Assembly: GCA_027490225.1 (NCBI GenBank)
Contig: JAIXYK010000038.1
Span: forward strand, 1-36,847
DNA from: Bacteroidota bacterium
GTDB taxonomy: Bacteria; Bacteroidota; Bacteroidia; M30B66
Reading direction: 5' to 3'
DNA length: 36,847 bases
Of the stretch, positions 1 through 12,326 are shown in pieces (position 1 is the stretch's first letter; the number at the start of each line of letters is the position of its first letter). The notes beneath the pieces are model-generated. The model made no database searches and had not been told where the DNA came from. It saw only the letters and a program-made list of their open reading frames with translations. Made by a program: the position numbers and the translations under genes.

Positions 1-716
1 GCAACAGCGATTTACATATTAAGGGCGGAAATAAAGAAGATTTTACCGTTTATAATGTTACTGCCAAAGACCGACCCACAAAATTTACAATCAAAAATTA
101 TTTTGGCATTCAACACATTTGGATTCCTCAGTATAACTATAGATTTGGTTACAGAATTAATAAAAATTGGGCAATATCTTTAGGCCTAGATCACATGAAA
201 TACGTAATGGATAACGACCAATACGCGCAAGTTTCAGGGGTTATCTCACAAGAAGCATCTCCAAAATATGCAGGTTCTTACCTTGATACACGCATGCTAA
301 TTTCTCAAGATTTTTTAAAATTTGAACACACGGATGGTTTGAATTTGTTAAGTTTTGATGCTGAATATTATATTCAATTATTCGTAAATAAGAAAAATAC
401 ATTAGGAGTTTATCTTCAAAGTGGGGTAGGAGGAATTTTTGTAATTCCTCGCTCCGATGTGCGGATTTTTGAAAAAGGACTCAATAACAGATTTCATTTG
501 GCTGGATATTCTATCAGCGCTAAATCGGGTCCTGAATTTAGGTTTTACAAAAGATATTTTTTAAGGTCGCAAGTGAGATTTGGTGGAATTTATTTACCAG
601 ATGTGCTCACCGCAAATGATGACCCCATAAGAATTGAACATGGTTTCACATTTTTACAATGGAATGTAACAGCAGGATTGTATTTTGGGTTTAAAAAGAA
701 AACTACCGCACCCTAA
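1..716 (+). CDS. Outer-membrane beta-barrel protein, C-terminal part (5' end outside window)
   Basis: The reading frame is open from the left edge (first full codon at base 3) to TAA at 714-716, so the Met at 195 is internal. About 237 residues are visible. They show alternating hydrophobic/polar strands rich in Tyr, Phe and Gly, such as YNYRFGYRINKNWAISLGLD and the terminal strand FLQWNVTAGLYFGF, as in bacterial outer-membrane barrels. No enzyme motif is seen. The stop overlaps the stop of the convergent peptidase gene by 14 bases. The family cannot be named without the N-terminus. The barrel call is an inference from composition and strand pattern. Confidence 0.7.
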   Translation, partial: NSDLHIKGGNKEDFTVYNVTAKDRPTKFTIKNYFGIQHIWIPQYNYRFGYRINKNWAISLGLDHMKYVMDNDQYAQVSGVISQEASPKYAGSYLDTRMLISQDFLKFEHTDGLNLLSFDAEYYIQLFVNKKNTLGVYLQSGVGGIFVIPRSDVRIFEKGLNNRFHLAGYSISAKSGPEFRFYKRYFLRSQVRFGGIYLPDVLTANDDPIRIEHGFTFLQWNVTAGLYFGFKKKTTAP

Positions 717-5353: not shown

Positions 5354-5731
5354 CTAGATTTTGCTCATTACAAAAGGCACTTTTATAATTGCCTGATAAT
5401 CTTCACCCGCTTCTAACATATCCTCATCATCTTCTTCATAATACCAAGTTACAGTAACTTTACTTTTGCTGCTGATGTGCAAACTTTGCAGTTTTTTGAA
5501 AATATCTAAAAGACACTTTGAAGAACTGGTATTAAAATATTCCAGTTGAATATTCACATTCGTTTCACCCTTTGGTTGAATTGAATATTTGTCAATCCAT
5601 TCAAAAATTGGCGTGTAAAATTCAATAGAGTTTTCTGGAATTGAACGACCTCTAAATTCAAGTTTACCATCTTGTGCATTGAATTTTACAAATGGTGTTT
5701 TGGGAGATATATCAATTGAAAGAATTTCCAT
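5354..5731 (-). CDS. SiaC family regulatory phosphoprotein (DUF1987)
   Basis: Small cytoplasmic protein of 125 residues spanning the whole DUF1987/SiaC family. The family signature region reads LEYFNTSSSKCLLDIF. Its threonine is residue 68, the same number as the Thr68 of Pseudomonas aeruginosa SiaC reported to be phosphorylated by SiaB. The C-terminal part has WYYEEDDEDMLEAGEDY, typical of the family. In Pseudomonas, unphosphorylated SiaC activates the diguanylate cyclase SiaD. No such cyclase is visible here, so the output must differ or lie elsewhere. It is the last gene of the operon, starting 2 bases after the kinase stop. Confidence 0.9.
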   Translation of the reverse strand: MEILSIDISPKTPFVKFNAQDGKLEFRGRSIPENSIEFYTPIFEWIDKYSIQPKGETNVNIQLEYFNTSSSKCLLDIFKKLQSLHISSKSKVTVTWYYEEDDEDMLEAGEDYQAIIKVPFVMSKI

Positions 5732-5733
5732 AT

Positions 5734-6288
5734 TTATTGTGTTACTTTAATGATCAAACTGAAAAAGGAATAAATATTATTGATTGGTGTAAAGTTATAC
5801 TCAAACTTTTGCCCGGATTTACGCGCAATATCAATCATTCCAAGTCCTCCTCCTCCCTTATCAGAAAAAGACTCATTACTTAGTGTATTTATGTAATATT
5901 CTTTTAATTCATCTTTATTCATGCTATTGATTCTTTCTAATTTAGATTCGAAATCAGTTACATTTTCTTTCAGAATATAATTACCAGTAATTATTTTGTA
6001 GGTGCTGTTATCGCTTCTGCCTATTAAAAACAAAGCAGAATTTTGATTATCTGATTTTACTAGATTTTGATTTCCAGTGCCATCATTGTGGTGATATAGG
6101 TTTTGAAGACATTCCACCAATACGTTGTAAACTTTTTTCTTTAACTTAGGTTCTTCACCAATGTTATCTAACTTCGATTCCATAATATGTAAAATGGAAG
6201 TGAGCAAATCTGAAGTGATTTCACCTTTGAAGGAAAGCATGATCTTTCCATCTTCCATTTTTTCATAAAAATCGTAGATGTCAAACAT
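5734..6288 (-). CDS. SiaB family protein kinase (GHKL-type ATPase fold, DUF6272)
   Basis: Cytoplasmic protein of 184 residues. It has an N-box-like helix, NVLVECLQNLYHH (about 55-67, with E59 and N63), and a glycine-rich ATP-lid loop, DKGGGGLGMIDIARKSG (143-159). Both are features of GHKL ATPases and of the SiaB family, which phosphorylates SiaC on threonine. There is no histidine-kinase dimerisation domain. The immediately following gene encodes the matching SiaC-like substrate, which strongly supports the call. A dephosphorylating PP2C partner (SiaA type) is not found in this window. The gene starts 10 bases after the end of the exported-protein gene. Confidence 0.9.
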   Translation of the reverse strand: MFDIYDFYEKMEDGKIMLSFKGEITSDLLTSILHIMESKLDNIGEEPKLKKKVYNVLVECLQNLYHHNDGTGNQNLVKSDNQNSALFLIGRSDNSTYKIITGNYILKENVTDFESKLERINSMNKDELKEYYINTLSNESFSDKGGGGLGMIDIARKSGQKFEYNFTPINNIYSFFSLIIKVTQ

Positions 6289-6298
6289 TTATAGTGGA

Positions 6299-6805
6299 TT
6301 ATTTAAAACCAGTTTGTAAACTCTTTCTACTTTGTAGCAAAAAACCAACACAACCATAAGTATTTTTTTCAGAACCTTCAGCAGCTGGGAGTGTCATTTC
6401 AACTCTTAAATTCAAGCTATTATCACAAGAAAACTCAAATTCTTTTGCATTGTCAGATGCATTACTGTCAAACAAAACAGCCTTGGTTTTTGCATCAGTT
6501 ATCTTAAAAGCAATGGGCGCTCCCTTTGTTAAAACATCTTCACCGCAGAATGTTAATCTGTAATCATAGCCTTTAAAAGAAGTGAAAGAAAATTCTGACA
6601 CTTGCCCCGGTCTAAACAATGCGCTTCTTGATTGAGAATTATATTTAAACTCTAAATCCTTTTTAGAAAATTTACATGCTTTTTTATGGTAATCTGTGCA
6701 ATAAACAGTCTTTTCAATAGCAGTGCTGCCTTTTTGTGCTTTGGCTTGAATTGAAAATATATAACCCGCAAATATTATGGTAATGAGCATTAAGATTCTT
6801 GACAT
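6299..6805 (-). CDS. Small exported protein of unknown function in the siaBC operon
   Basis: I do not recognise a family. The ATG at 6805 (168 residues) is preferred to the TTG at 6814. It gives a signal peptide, MSRILMLITIIFAGYIFS, followed by IQAKAQ. The mature part of about 140 residues is beta-rich with several cysteines (VYCTDYHKKAC, TFCGEDV, FSCDN, GCVGF). Pairing into disulfides would suit the periplasm. The segment YDYRLTFCGEDV...AFKITDA resembles a sandwich-like ligand- or lipid-facing fold, but this is only an impression. It lies between the lipoprotein and the kinase gene with gaps of 13 and 10 bases, so co-transcription is very likely. Confidence 0.75.
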   Translation of the reverse strand: MSRILMLITIIFAGYIFSIQAKAQKGSTAIEKTVYCTDYHKKACKFSKKDLEFKYNSQSRSALFRPGQVSEFSFTSFKGYDYRLTFCGEDVLTKGAPIAFKITDAKTKAVLFDSNASDNAKEFEFSCDNSLNLRVEMTLPAAEGSEKNTYGCVGFLLQSRKSLQTGFK

Positions 6806-6818
6806 GGTTTTCAAATAA

Positions 6819-7718
6819 TTATTTTGATGTTGAATTGTTTAACGTTAATTCGTTTCTCACACTAAGTGCAATTGCTGAAATTTTATTGTAGTCTTCTTCA
6901 GTTATCGAAAGCTTTGTGCTTCCGCCAATTACATTTTTGCCTTCAATAACCTGACGCTCGCTTGCATCTTCTTTAATGCTATCGAATGCTTCTTTCAGCG
7001 GTTTGATAGTGTTTTTGGTTTGTGCCACTCTTTCATCTGCAGCATTTTTTTCTAAATATTGGAATAAATTTTCTAAGGGGTATTTTTGATCAGCAATGTA
7101 TTGAATGCTTTTATCATTGGCTTTAAAAGCACCAACAGATTGGATACTTAAATAAATACTTTCAGATAATCCACCCGCAACAACTAATGCCAATGTTGCA
7201 CCTTGTCCGTTGCTTTCTAAATTTGCAGAAGCATCAAAGAAAACTTCATTTGTAATTTTATTTAATGAATCTTTATTGCTTAAATTCTTTTCAATTCTTT
7301 TTAATGTTTCATCATTTATTACACTTGAAATACCTAGCTCATCGGCAAGTTTTTTCATGTTGTCAAAATATTTTAAAACATCCGCCTTTTGGTCAAAAGT
7401 TGAACAATAAAATAAATCGCTGCTATATGCACCAAAATTAATTGCTTTCGTTTTTTGATCAGTATATTTATTAATATTTTCAACAGGATTTAACAAATTA
7501 CTTTTTGCTTTTACTCCATATTCCTTTAGCTGTAAAAATAAATCTCCAGGTAATGGAACTTGAAAAAATGCTTCAGGTGAAATATTTGTGTCATTTACCA
7601 CACTTGTATCTGAATTTTTTCCTTCTTCACTTTTGTTTCCTCCACAGCTGGTTAAAACTACTGCATGAAATGCAATGACAATAAAAACCGGAAAAACTCT
7701 TTTTAATATTAGATTCAT
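6819..7718 (-). CDS. Lipoprotein of unknown function, first gene of the siaBC operon
   Basis: The ATG at 7718 (299 residues) is chosen over the GTG at 7745. The GTG lies inside the -7 promoter box, and the shorter form starts with an ideal lipoprotein signal: MNLILKR, a hydrophobic core, then lipobox LTSC followed by GGNKSEEGKN. After the acidic/Asn-rich tether the mature part (about 60-299) is mostly helical. The segment INFGAYSSDLFYCSTFDQ is followed by long helices such as ADVLKYFDNMKKLADELGIS. The pattern of a helical periplasmic sensor or scaffold fits but is inference. It is the promoter-proximal gene of four. Confidence 0.8.
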   Translation of the reverse strand: MNLILKRVFPVFIVIAFHAVVLTSCGGNKSEEGKNSDTSVVNDTNISPEAFFQVPLPGDLFLQLKEYGVKAKSNLLNPVENINKYTDQKTKAINFGAYSSDLFYCSTFDQKADVLKYFDNMKKLADELGISSVINDETLKRIEKNLSNKDSLNKITNEVFFDASANLESNGQGATLALVVAGGLSESIYLSIQSVGAFKANDKSIQYIADQKYPLENLFQYLEKNAADERVAQTKNTIKPLKEAFDSIKEDASERQVIEGKNVIGGSTKLSITEEDYNKISAIALSVRNELTLNNSTSK

Positions 7719-7744: not shown

Positions 7745-7775
7745 CAAACCTAAATTAAAATAAGCAAACTACAAA
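7745..7775 (-). promoter_or_regulatory. Bacteroidota-type promoter of the lipoprotein-siaBC operon
   Basis: On the minus strand a TTTG -33 element (complement at 7772-7775) is followed by exactly 19 bases and TAGGTTTG (complement 7745-7752). This matches the TTTG-N19-TAnnTTTG consensus of Bacteroidota. The transcription start is expected near 7738, about 20 bases before the ATG at 7718. Confidence 0.7.
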
Positions 7776-7889: not shown

Positions 7890-10800
7890 ATGTCATCAAT
7901 TAGAATAATTTTTATAGGTATTATTACCCTTTTTTGCATTGGCAAAATCGCAGCTCAGCCAATTAAGTCATTTAACGTGAGTCCAGAAGTATTCATTAAA
8001 GAACTGGAACAGTACATAGAAACTGCCGATAAAAAAGTTGCAAAAGAGCTCATCAATGTTTTTGAACCAATTTGGAAAACAAAACTATCGGCAACACAGC
8101 AACAGACCATCATTGTTACATCTAATGCCATGTTGAAGAAAAGATTTTCAGCAATTCCTAATTTTAAAGAATATGTAGATTGTATCATTGCTTTTGCAAA
8201 TAGTGATAAAACAACCCAGCAATTTATTGATTGGCATGTGACCTTAGATAAATACATGGTTAAAGCCAATGCAGGTAAATTTGCGCAATACGTTAAAACC
8301 TCAGAAAACCTTTTTAAAATTAATGCTCTTTATGCTTCTGATGCAGTAAAATGGGCAGTAAAAACATCGGAATTCTCGTTTCAATACGATTCTATTCCCA
8401 AAATAATCATTCCAAATACAGATTTATCTGGAACAACAAGAGCTGATAGTACAATAATTTACAATACTTCTGGCGTTTTTTACCCTACAAGCTATACCTT
8501 TTACGGAAAAGACGGAAAATTACTTTGGTCAAGAGTTAACCTGAAAGAAAACGAGGCTTATGCAAAACTAAATAAATACCAACTCACAGTTAAAACAACC
8601 AAATTTGTAGCAGATTCAGCAATTTTCTCTTTTCCAAAATACTTCAAAGAGCCTTTGCTCGGAATTGTAACTGATAAATTAACAGATAATTCAGATAAAA
8701 GAGAAGCTACTTATCCTCGTTTTACATCTTACAACGCTGAATTTTTAATACCAGGAATATTCAAAGACATTGATTATGAAGGTGGATTAACTATTCAAGG
8801 AAGCTCATTATTAGGTTCAGGTAATGAATTAAGACCTGCAAAGTTTACATTTAAAAGAGAAGGTAAAACATTTATAGAAGCTACTTCCAAATCATTTTTA
8901 ATTGAACAAAATAGTTTGCAAACCGCTGAAGCAGCTGTAACATTTAGATTAGATACTGATTCTATAGTTCATCCAGGATTGGTATTTAGATATTTCGACG
9001 ATAAAAAAGAATTATATTTACTTAGAAACAATGAAGGAACTTCCAAAACTCCTTTTTTCAATTCTTTTCATCAAATTGATATGGATTTTGAGGTGCTTTC
9101 TTGGAAACTCGAAGAACCCACAATTAGATTTAAAGCCATTGCCGGAGCAGTAGAAAGCAAAGGGCTTTTCGAATCAGCAGATTACTTTAGACAAGAAAGG
9201 TACATAGAAATTCAAGGAATCGATGAACAAAGTCCATTATTGGTACTGAGAAATTTAGCCGATAAATTAAAAAGAGAGGAGTTTTCTGCCTCTGAAGCCG
9301 CCTCATATTACAAATCTGAAATAACCCAAATTCGGCATATCTTAAGAAGACTTTCCAACATGGGCTTTATTTTATATAACGAGGAAACTGAAATGGTTAC
9401 TGTGAAACCACGTCTCCGCAAATATATTCTTGCAGTAAATGGAAGAGCCGATTATGATGTAATACAATTTTATTCAAATGTTGGAGGTTCAGAAAACAAT
9501 GGTGAATTAAGCCTTTTGAACTACGATTTAAGACTACATGGTGTTGAAAGAATATTTTTAAGTGATTCTCAAAACGTGGTTATTTTTCCTAAAAATCAGG
9601 AATTGGTATTGCACAAAAACAGGAATTTTGACTTTGCTGGTCGCATCATGGCTGGTCGTTTTGAGTTTTTTGGTAAGAAATTCGATTTCGATTATGATAG
9701 GTTTAAACTCAATCTCGATAACGTAGATTCACTCAGATTGAGAGTAGAAACAAGCGAAAAAGATGAGTTTGGAAAAGTGCAACTCAAAAAAGTAAAAACT
9801 GTAATTGAAAATGTAATTGGAGACATATTAATTGACCATCCTTACAACAAAAGCGGGGTAAAGTCCTTGGCCAAATACCCCATATTTAATTCAGCCAAAA
9901 ATTCCTACGCATATTATGAAAAAGGTTCTATTCTAGGTGGAGTTTACAAAAGGAGCAATTTCTACTTTCAGTTAGACCCTTATCAAGTTGATAGTTTGGA
10001 TAATTTCTCTAACGAAGGGCTAATATTTAAGGGCAATTTCGCTTCTGCGGGTATTTTTCCTGATTTAAGAGAAGAATTAAAGTTGCAGGAAGATTATTCT
10101 TTAGGTTTTAAAAGAAATACTGGAGATGTTGGTTTGCCAATTTATCAAGAAAAAGGTAAGTTTATAAATGCTTTGCAGCTTAGCCACAAAGGTTTGCGAG
10201 GTGATGGTGAGATTCAATACATCACAGCCTCTGCTAAATCTAATGATTTTGTGTTTTTTCCTGACTCAGTGAATGCCTTTTGTAAGAATTTAAATGTTAA
10301 AGCTGCCACGCAAGGCAACGTAGAATATCCAGACGTAGAAGCCGCAGAAGTAAAATTACATTGGGAACCATACAAACCTAACAAGTTTGAAGTAGCACAA
10401 ACAAAAGAAGCTCTCTCACTTTACGCAGGAGAGTCTAAATTAAAAGGGAAAATAAATATTGGTGAGAATGGTATGACGGGAAGTGGTTTGCTCGAATTTG
10501 CCAGCGCTGAAGTAGCATCCAAAGAATTCAGGTTTAAACGGGAAGATTTTAAGTCAGATACCGCCTCATTTGCCTTTACTGCACGTAACGAGGTAAATCC
10601 CGATGGTACAAAAGAAGTGGCCATTAAGACCGATAACGTAAAAGCGGATGTTAGTTTCAAAAACCGACAAGGGCAGTTTAAATCGAATTCAGCCGATTCA
10701 TACATTGAATTTCCTGTAAATAAATACATCGCTTACATGGACGAATTGCGCTGGTATATGGATAAAGATGAGGTTGATATGAATTCTTCTATGAACGAGA

Positions 10801-12326
10801 TTGACTTAATTGGTTCCCGATTCGTTTCCGTTCGGCCCGACCAAGATTCCATTACTTTCGTTGCGCCAAGAGCTAAGTATGCTTTGGCCGACCGAACAAT
10901 TAGAACCGAAGGTGTAAAATTGATTCGTGTTGCTGATGCAACAATTTATCCTAATGAAGAGAAAATTAACGTAGAGAGGAATGCCGTAATGACGCCATTT
11001 ACCAACTCAAGATTAACTGCTAACAACGATTTGAAATATCACGATATTTACAATGCAACTATTGAAGTAACTGCTAAAAGAAAATACAAGGCCTCTGGTG
11101 ATTATGATTTTGAAGATGCATTGGGAAAAATTCAAAAAATTACCTTTAAATCAATCACACAAGATACCGCTGGTAATACAATCGGAACTGGCGATATAGA
11201 TGAAAGCTTGAAGTTCACTTTTAGTCCAGAATTTGAGTTTCAAGGAAAAGTTAATTTATATGCACCCAGTAAATTTTTGATTTTTGATGGAGGTGTTCGT
11301 ATTTCTCACACTTGCGAAAGCATTGCCCGAAATTGGTTAAAATTCAAGTATGAAATTGACCCGGGAAACATCATGATACCTGTTGATTCGTTTCCTAAAA
11401 GTATTGATAATGAAAAGTTAATGGCAGGTTTAGTATTAATAAAAGATTCAACTCACGTATATCCTGTGTTTATGTCGAAGAAACAGAAAACCGGAGATCA
11501 AGAGATTCTAAATGCAAGAGGTTTTTTAAAGTTCGATAAAGCCAAACAGGAGTTCCAGATAACTTCGAAAGAAAAATTTGCTAATCCTGAATTACCAGAC
11601 GATTTTGTTGCTATGAAACAAGCCAATTGCGATGTCTCGGGCGAAGGAAGACTTAATTTTGGATTAGATCTGGGGCAGGTAAAACTTCAAACATTTGGAA
11701 AGGCCTCGCATAGTATTGTTTCTGACCAAACCAGTTTTAAAGCAATGATAGCCATGGATTTTTTCATGACGCCAGAATTATGGAAAATGATTGAAGAAAC
11801 CATCGCAGGAACCACAGGTTTGCAAGCTGCTGATGTAACTTCTGCGGATTATAAAAAGGCACTTACAGGATTAATTGGTAAAGAGCCTGCCGACAAAGTG
11901 TTAAAAGATTTAAGTGCAACCGGAACTATCAAGAAATTTCCTGATGAATTAAACAAGGCAATTGTTTTTTCAAACATAGAAATGAAATGGAATACAGAAA
12001 CGCGTTCTTACATTTCTGAAGGTTGGATACCTATTTCGAATATAGGTAAAACGCCTATAAACAAAGTAATTAAAGGTAAAATAGAAATGGTAAAGAAAAG
12101 GGGAGGAGACATTTTGAATGTTTACATTGAATTAGAATCTCAAAAATGGTTCTTCTTTAATTACACCAGAAACATAATGAACATCATTGCAGGCGATGAA
12201 AACTTTAATAAAACCATTCGCGAACTTGATGGCAAAAAACGATCAATAGATGTTCCGAGCGGACAACCTCCTTACCAGTTTATGATAGGAATCGAAAAAC
12301 GAAAAAGAGACTTTTTAGAGAAATAG
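7890..12326 (+). CDS. Very large exported protein of unknown function (1478 aa)
   Basis: I do not recognise a named family, although proteins of this size and style occur in Bacteroidota. A signal peptide (MSSIRIIFIGIITLFCIG, then KIAAQ) directs export. Residues about 50-170 are helical. The bulk is beta-rich with repeated strands of the type FxGxxxFASAGIFPD and KLKGKINIGENGMTGSG, reminiscent of extended beta proteins such as OstA/AsmA-like envelope proteins. A helical island at about 450-510 (SASEAASYYKSEITQIRHIL, then RRLSNMGFILYNEETEMV) resembles a winged helix. No transmembrane helix or sorting domain is seen at the C-terminus, which ends FMIGIEKRKRDFLEK. It is divergent from the siaBC operon with about 170 bases between starts. 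Confidence 0.8.
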   Translation: MSSIRIIFIGIITLFCIGKIAAQPIKSFNVSPEVFIKELEQYIETADKKVAKELINVFEPIWKTKLSATQQQTIIVTSNAMLKKRFSAIPNFKEYVDCIIAFANSDKTTQQFIDWHVTLDKYMVKANAGKFAQYVKTSENLFKINALYASDAVKWAVKTSEFSFQYDSIPKIIIPNTDLSGTTRADSTIIYNTSGVFYPTSYTFYGKDGKLLWSRVNLKENEAYAKLNKYQLTVKTTKFVADSAIFSFPKYFKEPLLGIVTDKLTDNSDKREATYPRFTSYNAEFLIPGIFKDIDYEGGLTIQGSSLLGSGNELRPAKFTFKREGKTFIEATSKSFLIEQNSLQTAEAAVTFRLDTDSIVHPGLVFRYFDDKKELYLLRNNEGTSKTPFFNSFHQIDMDFEVLSWKLEEPTIRFKAIAGAVESKGLFESADYFRQERYIEIQGIDEQSPLLVLRNLADKLKREEFSASEAASYYKSEITQIRHILRRLSNMGFILYNEETEMVTVKPRLRKYILAVNGRADYDVIQFYSNVGGSENNGELSLLNYDLRLHGVERIFLSDSQNVVIFPKNQELVLHKNRNFDFAGRIMAGRFEFFGKKFDFDYDRFKLNLDNVDSLRLRVETSEKDEFGKVQLKKVKTVIENVIGDILIDHPYNKSGVKSLAKYPIFNSAKNSYAYYEKGSILGGVYKRSNFYFQLDPYQVDSLDNFSNEGLIFKGNFASAGIFPDLREELKLQEDYSLGFKRNTGDVGLPIYQEKGKFINALQLSHKGLRGDGEIQYITASAKSNDFVFFPDSVNAFCKNLNVKAATQGNVEYPDVEAAEVKLHWEPYKPNKFEVAQTKEALSLYAGESKLKGKINIGENGMTGSGLLEFASAEVASKEFRFKREDFKSDTASFAFTARNEVNPDGTKEVAIKTDNVKADVSFKNRQGQFKSNSADSYIEFPVNKYIAYMDELRWYMDKDEVDMNSSMNEIDLIGSRFVSVRPDQDSITFVAPRAKYALADRTIRTEGVKLIRVADATIYPNEEKINVERNAVMTPFTNSRLTANNDLKYHDIYNATIEVTAKRKYKASGDYDFEDALGKIQKITFKSITQDTAGNTIGTGDIDESLKFTFSPEFEFQGKVNLYAPSKFLIFDGGVRISHTCESIARNWLKFKYEIDPGNIMIPVDSFPKSIDNEKLMAGLVLIKDSTHVYPVFMSKKQKTGDQEILNARGFLKFDKAKQEFQITSKEKFANPELPDDFVAMKQANCDVSGEGRLNFGLDLGQVKLQTFGKASHSIVSDQTSFKAMIAMDFFMTPELWKMIEETIAGTTGLQAADVTSADYKKALTGLIGKEPADKVLKDLSATGTIKKFPDELNKAIVFSNIEMKWNTETRSYISEGWIPISNIGKTPINKVIKGKIEMVKKRGGDILNVYIELESQKWFFFNYTRNIMNIIAGDENFNKTIRELDGKKRSIDVPSGQPPYQFMIGIEKRKRDFLEK

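Follow-up and report, generated by a model that had tools for sequence, protein, structure and literature searches.

Results

The window examined here is the whole 36,847-nt stretch of contig JAIXYK010000038.1 (assembly GCA_027490225.1) from a Bacteroidota bacterium of the class Bacteroidia. On its minus strand, an ORF check recovered, as first described, four genes encoding a lipoprotein, a small exported protein, SiaB, and SiaC, with intergenic gaps of 13, 10, and 2 nt (Table 1). A −7 motif of the TAnnTTTG type, TAGGTTTG, was located 26 nt 5′ of the lipoprotein ATG, with a TTG 19 nt upstream of the motif (TTG-N19-TAGGTTTG), and a search for TAnnTTTG in the 120 nt before each of the three inner genes found none. 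These data confirm that the four-gene operon behind a Bacteroidota-type promoter is real, as a sequence-only reading of this DNA had claimed from one promoter and gaps of 2 to 13 nt. The exported-protein ORF starts with ATG (its 6805 end), and a TTG is present at 6814. Only 8 nt separate the siaC stop codon from that of a convergent gene encoding an ABC exporter subunit. The sequence-only reading had found no candidate target for the SiaB–SiaC pair and had left this strong candidate unconnected.

Table 1. Features of the siaBC locus and of the convergent exporter gene (window positions; residue numbers for protein domains)
Feature	Position	Strand	Basis
Exporter subunit, 1016 aa	2295..5345	+	Pfam ABC_tran 1e-31, ABC2_membrane 3e-17
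Exporter, TerB-like domain	residues 1-138		Pfam TerB in 22/23 homologues
Exporter, FHA-like domain	residues about 148-234		structure match only, Z about 7, Foldseek E 7e-3
Exporter, ABC ATPase	residues about 245-470		Pfam ABC_tran
Exporter, ABC2 membrane domain with large extracytoplasmic loop	C-terminal to ATPase		Pfam ABC2_membrane; loop read from sequence
siaC, STAS-like regulatory phosphoprotein, predicted phosphosite Thr68 in EYFNTSSSK	5354..5731	-	Pfam PF09345 1.5e-42
siaB, SiaB-family protein kinase (DUF6272, GHKL-like), ECLQN and GGGGLG motifs	5734..6288	-	PF19788 4e-39
Small exported protein, signal peptide ending ...QAKA before Q, by eye	6299..6805	-	no Pfam match
Lipoprotein, lipobox LTSC, all-helical domain	6819..7718	-	no Pfam match over cut-off; homologue family
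-7 promoter motif TAGGTTTG	7745..7752	-	sequence; consensus match only

Two flanking genes are syntenic in relatives of the same family. The one preceding the exporter gene (1746 to 2237; L093 and L094) encodes a small, cysteine-rich protein that looks YkgJ-like by eye, and the one past the operon (7890 to 12326; L092, L093, and L094) encodes an exported protein of 1478 aa. In the relative G155 (L093, 3085 to 6700), the lipoprotein–exported protein–siaB–siaC block and the exporter C terminus are full of frameshifts. Because the ends of the two flanking genes carry frameshifts as well, a poor assembly is no less likely an explanation than real decay, and the apparent decay of all five genes was dropped as evidence.

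SiaB and SiaC

Judged by profile and alignment, the assignments of the predicted proteins to the SiaC and SiaB families are secure. SiaC aligns to the P. aeruginosa SiaC chains 6kko/6k4f with an E value of 2e-16, and in this sequence-based alignment Thr68 of its NTSS motif coincides with Thr68 of the P. aeruginosa protein, the residue that is phosphorylated by SiaB and dephosphorylated by SiaA (PMC7647112). Of 85 Bacteroidota homologues, more than 90% retain the Thr68 motif. SiaB scores 152 bits against the NCBIfam SiaB family NF038262 (cut-off 85) and matches 6kko_A with an E value of 1e-11. Thus, the Pfam and NCBIfam matches, together with the alignment to 6kko/6k4f, bear out the earlier description of a SiaB-type kinase and a SiaC with Thr68. 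Neither protein reaches the equivalog cut-off, with 91.9 of 150 bits for SiaC (NF038265) and 83 of 225 bits for SiaB (NF038264).

The SiaC family is present in about half of the sampled Bacteroidia genomes (193 of 396), and several paralogues are common, up to 10 per genome in this class sample. Exporter-linked copies cluster in a SiaC tree and do not form one clade; the alignment has too few columns for deep forks, and the tree does not show how often the exporter link arose. A specific helix-3 signature for the exporter-linked copies was sought and rejected, since L100, where neither an exporter nor a GGDEF gene was seen nearby, has the acidic DDED motif as well.

The Exporter Subunit and the Envelope Proteins

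The N-terminal 245 residues of the exporter were modelled with a mean pLDDT of 87, and the TerB-like domain of this model matches the structure of PG1108 (Z 9.0). The FHA-like domain keeps the NG turn, and the GR and SxxH phosphopeptide-binding set is not evident at the level of the sequence consensus of 23 homologues. Upstream of the exporter gene at L019, L037, and L045, a PepSY-like membrane protein, a lipoprotein, a STAS-like protein, and an HPt-like protein (names read from sequence) stand in a row that replaces the lipoprotein/exported protein pair.

The lipoprotein belongs to a homologue family in which Cys25 is invariant. Its predicted model has a mean pLDDT of 77, with most of the helical body at about 90, and comparison with the PDB gave no confident match (best E 0.29, EfeM/Algp7-like). 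Homologues of the small exported protein are encoded next to the exporter gene or next to siaB in other members of the class Bacteroidia, and the genes for the lipoprotein and the exported protein accompany the exporter gene or siaBC in several arrangements. This conservation, the absence of which might have counted against a link of the envelope proteins to the pair, agrees with the earlier proposal. In many lineages neither envelope gene lies near siaBC and the exporter gene, indicating that the lipoprotein and exported protein are accessory.

Co-occurrence and Gene Order

A phylum-wide sample of 148 genomes contained only 8 with SiaC, and class and order samples were therefore used. One set of 396 Bacteroidia genomes was screened for both the exporter head (profile A1) and the SiaC family: 177 contain the two together and 193 neither, with SiaC alone in 16 and the exporter alone in 10. 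Fisher's test on these counts gives 7e-79, a value inflated by shared ancestry and also by lifestyle. Within the window's order, the identical 4 of 10 genomes hold SiaC and the exporter, and the two genes are always adjacent. Among the best matches listed, no more than about 500 nt separates siaC from the exporter gene in at least 30 genomes of the class, from 15 families, and the same holds for 19 of 76 loci in an independent contig collection. By our estimate, with one to two exporter genes among some 3,000, such adjacency would arise by chance in about 1 case in 1,000. Adjacency is a stronger argument than genome co-occurrence. The convergent exporter gene is a conserved partner of siaBC and part of the same system. 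At most siaBC loci, no exporter gene lies within 500 nt. Together with the many SiaC paralogues and the 16 SiaC-only genomes, this makes it likely that SiaC has other partners besides the exporter.

The order of the window, with lipoprotein–exported protein–siaB–siaC convergent with the exporter gene, recurs at L092 and L094; the four genes thus appear elsewhere in the same order, and other relatives use different ones. At L016, L038, L048, L068, and L095, siaB–siaC converges on exporter–exported protein–lipoprotein, an order also found at L030 and L046 but with about 3 to 3.5 kb between the two groups. L096 and L097 contain a codirectional six-gene run, PP2C–siaB–siaC–exporter–lipoprotein–exported protein, in which the phosphatase is a HAMP/GAF/PAS-SpoIIE receptor-phosphatase by Pfam. 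The window's genome itself has a second copy, siaC2–lipoprotein2–exporter2 (L011 = G000:C9, 4627 to 10608), with which the gene for a 531-aa membrane-type SpoIIE phosphatase is convergent; the window siaB is the only SiaB gene in the genome, the second module having none.

A four-gene run of SpoIIE phosphatase, lipoprotein (about 270 to 290 aa), siaB, and siaC recurs at L026, L029, L031, L032, L040, L046, L063, L064, L066, L067, L076, L081, and L087. This run is likely a SiaA-type input module of Bacteroidota. Its SpoIIE protein carries a Reg_prop/Y_Y_Y beta-propeller sensor where tested (L066), and its lipoprotein gave no Pfam match for the L030 member. At L066, a lipoprotein and a weak exported-protein homologue (1528 to 2902) directly precede the run, and no full-length exporter of this family was found within 8 kb of it.

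Diguanylate Cyclases and Phosphatases

Searches for GGDEF domains found none in the window's genome, which is 100% complete, none in nine relatives of its order, and none in the seven Bacteroidia genomes with SiaC and exporter that were examined, including other class members of the phylum sample. The earlier statement that the operon lacks a cyclase therefore extends to the genome and its relatives, and no distant diguanylate cyclase co-occurs with the pair. In another class of the phylum (L098 and L101), siaB–siaC is followed by a GGDEF gene and preceded by a large gene, which in L098 encodes a beta-propeller SpoIIE phosphatase. This layout is the one expected of SiaABCD, and the exporter thus occupies the place held by the cyclase elsewhere.

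No SiaA-type PP2C gene was found on the window contig. The genome, by contrast, encodes eight SpoIIE/PP2C domains (Pfam), one of them near the second siaC locus (L011). Thus, of the sequence-only reading, the operon without a cyclase and the conserved envelope proteins stand; the absence of a PP2C phosphatase holds for the window and not for the genome, and its view of the target is not supported.

Discussion

siaBC, the exporter gene, and the envelope genes are inherited together in genomes that seemingly lack a cyclase, which argues that the switch probably controls export. We therefore favor, as the probable reading by analogy with known systems, a SiaABC-type Ser/Thr partner switch that has an envelope exporter, and not a diguanylate cyclase, as its output, with SiaC docking on the exporter head. 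The phosphorylation of SiaC Thr68 would be set by the SiaB kinase and a PP2C/SpoIIE receptor phosphatase, whose gene lies elsewhere in the window's genome and joins the run in some relatives. In Pseudomonas, the kinase and SiaC are known to activate SiaD, an enzyme that produces c-di-GMP. SiaC without phosphate there binds the helical stalk of this enzyme through Thr68 and adjacent residues, and its phosphorylation blocks the binding (PMC8457831). By analogy with SiaC–SiaD, SiaC would dock on the cytoplasmic TerB/FHA-like head in one of its phosphorylation states, most likely without the phosphate, and docked SiaC would switch the exporter ATPase or its assembly. SiaB and the SpoIIE phosphatase would in this way set the fraction of SiaC able to bind the head. 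The lipoprotein and the small exported protein may be envelope parts of the exporter, as accessory or sensor subunits. The direct SiaC–exporter contact, the active form, the acting phosphatase, the direction of control, the substrate, and phosphorylation in this organism are elements that we infer.

An unlikely alternative is that the association is indirect: siaBC, the exporter, and the envelope proteins would be coinherited for one task, and SiaC would target a different protein, such as an unlinked regulator, without contacting the exporter. In most lineages the genes converge instead of forming an operon; this, the many SiaC paralogues per genome, and the 16 SiaC-only and 10 exporter-only genomes are all consistent with an indirect association. 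However, siaC and the exporter gene share a strand in the runs of L096/L097, as do siaC, lipoprotein, and exporter genes in L011, and in L098 and L101 a GGDEF gene, which encodes the direct SiaC target in Pseudomonas, is swapped in at the same position.

It is also conceivable, though quite improbable, that phospho-SiaC is the active form and that pThr68 is recognized by the exporter's FHA-like domain, much as the Rv1747 FHA domain recognizes a phospho-threonine protein in mycobacteria. An FHA-like fold in the exporter head, encoded beside a member of a threonine-phosphorylated family, and the Rv1747–Rv2623 precedent (PMC5549992) fit such a mechanism. The canonical FHA Arg/Ser/His positions, however, are not evident in the family consensus, which makes the pThr68 reading the less likely version, and phosphorylation abolishes SiaC–SiaD binding (PMC8457831).

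The model first proposed for this DNA, in which the two envelope proteins form a surface sensor that feeds SiaB/SiaC and the pair switches an unknown target, here taken as unlinked, appears very improbable: the envelope genes do come first in the siaBC operon in the window and two relatives (L092 and L094), but in other families they lie with the exporter gene, on the opposite strand from siaBC (L016, L030, L038, L048, L068, and L095). A distant diguanylate cyclase as the target, as in the known SiaABCD pathway (PMC7647112, PMC8457831), is ruled out by the GGDEF-free complete genome and its nine order relatives unless the domain is unrecognizable.

In the classical partner switches SpoIIAB/SpoIIAA/SpoIIE and RsbWVU, a GHKL-type kinase, a STAS-like phosphoprotein, and a PP2C phosphatase act with a sigma factor as the output. 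The system described here has the same three kinds of component, but no sigma factor gene is present in the window operon. It resembles SiaABCD of P. aeruginosa (PMC7647112, PMC8457831) in its adjacent SiaB-family kinase and SiaC, in Thr68 within NTSS, and in the PP2C phosphatases of the genome. It differs in having no SiaD/GGDEF protein anywhere and no PP2C gene in the operon, with an ABC exporter and two envelope proteins instead, and in the scores of SiaC and SiaB, which do not reach the equivalog thresholds set for the Pseudomonas proteins. Rv1747/PknF of M. tuberculosis provides a case of an FHA-ABC exporter under Ser/Thr phosphorylation control in mycobacteria (PMC3908365, PMC5549992). 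As in Rv1747, an FHA-type domain, an ABC ATPase, and an ABC2 membrane domain are joined in one chain encoded beside a kinase gene. The neighbour kinase of Rv1747, however, is the Ser/Thr protein kinase PknF, whereas here a GHKL-like DUF6272 SiaB would act on a separate adaptor, SiaC, and the window exporter adds a TerB-like domain and has an FHA-like domain that looks degenerate.

More broadly, SiaB/SiaC may be a general Thr-phosphorylation adaptor whose output was exchanged during evolution and which, across Bacteroidia, acts as the direct gate of an ABC exporter that has a TerB/FHA head and partners in the envelope; we put this forward tentatively. As part of the same adaptor reading, it is possible that the PP2C–GHKL–STAS partner switch here serves membrane transport and not a sigma factor or a diguanylate cyclase. 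Our search of a library of open-access papers retrieved none linking SiaC to a transporter. Because no cyclase was found in any of the seven genomes with SiaC and exporter, the question of what SiaB/SiaC does there has so far had no answer, and the exporter partner offers one testable target for the pair in Bacteroidia. If the proposal is true, partner switching would extend from gene expression and second messengers to the direct control of envelope export.
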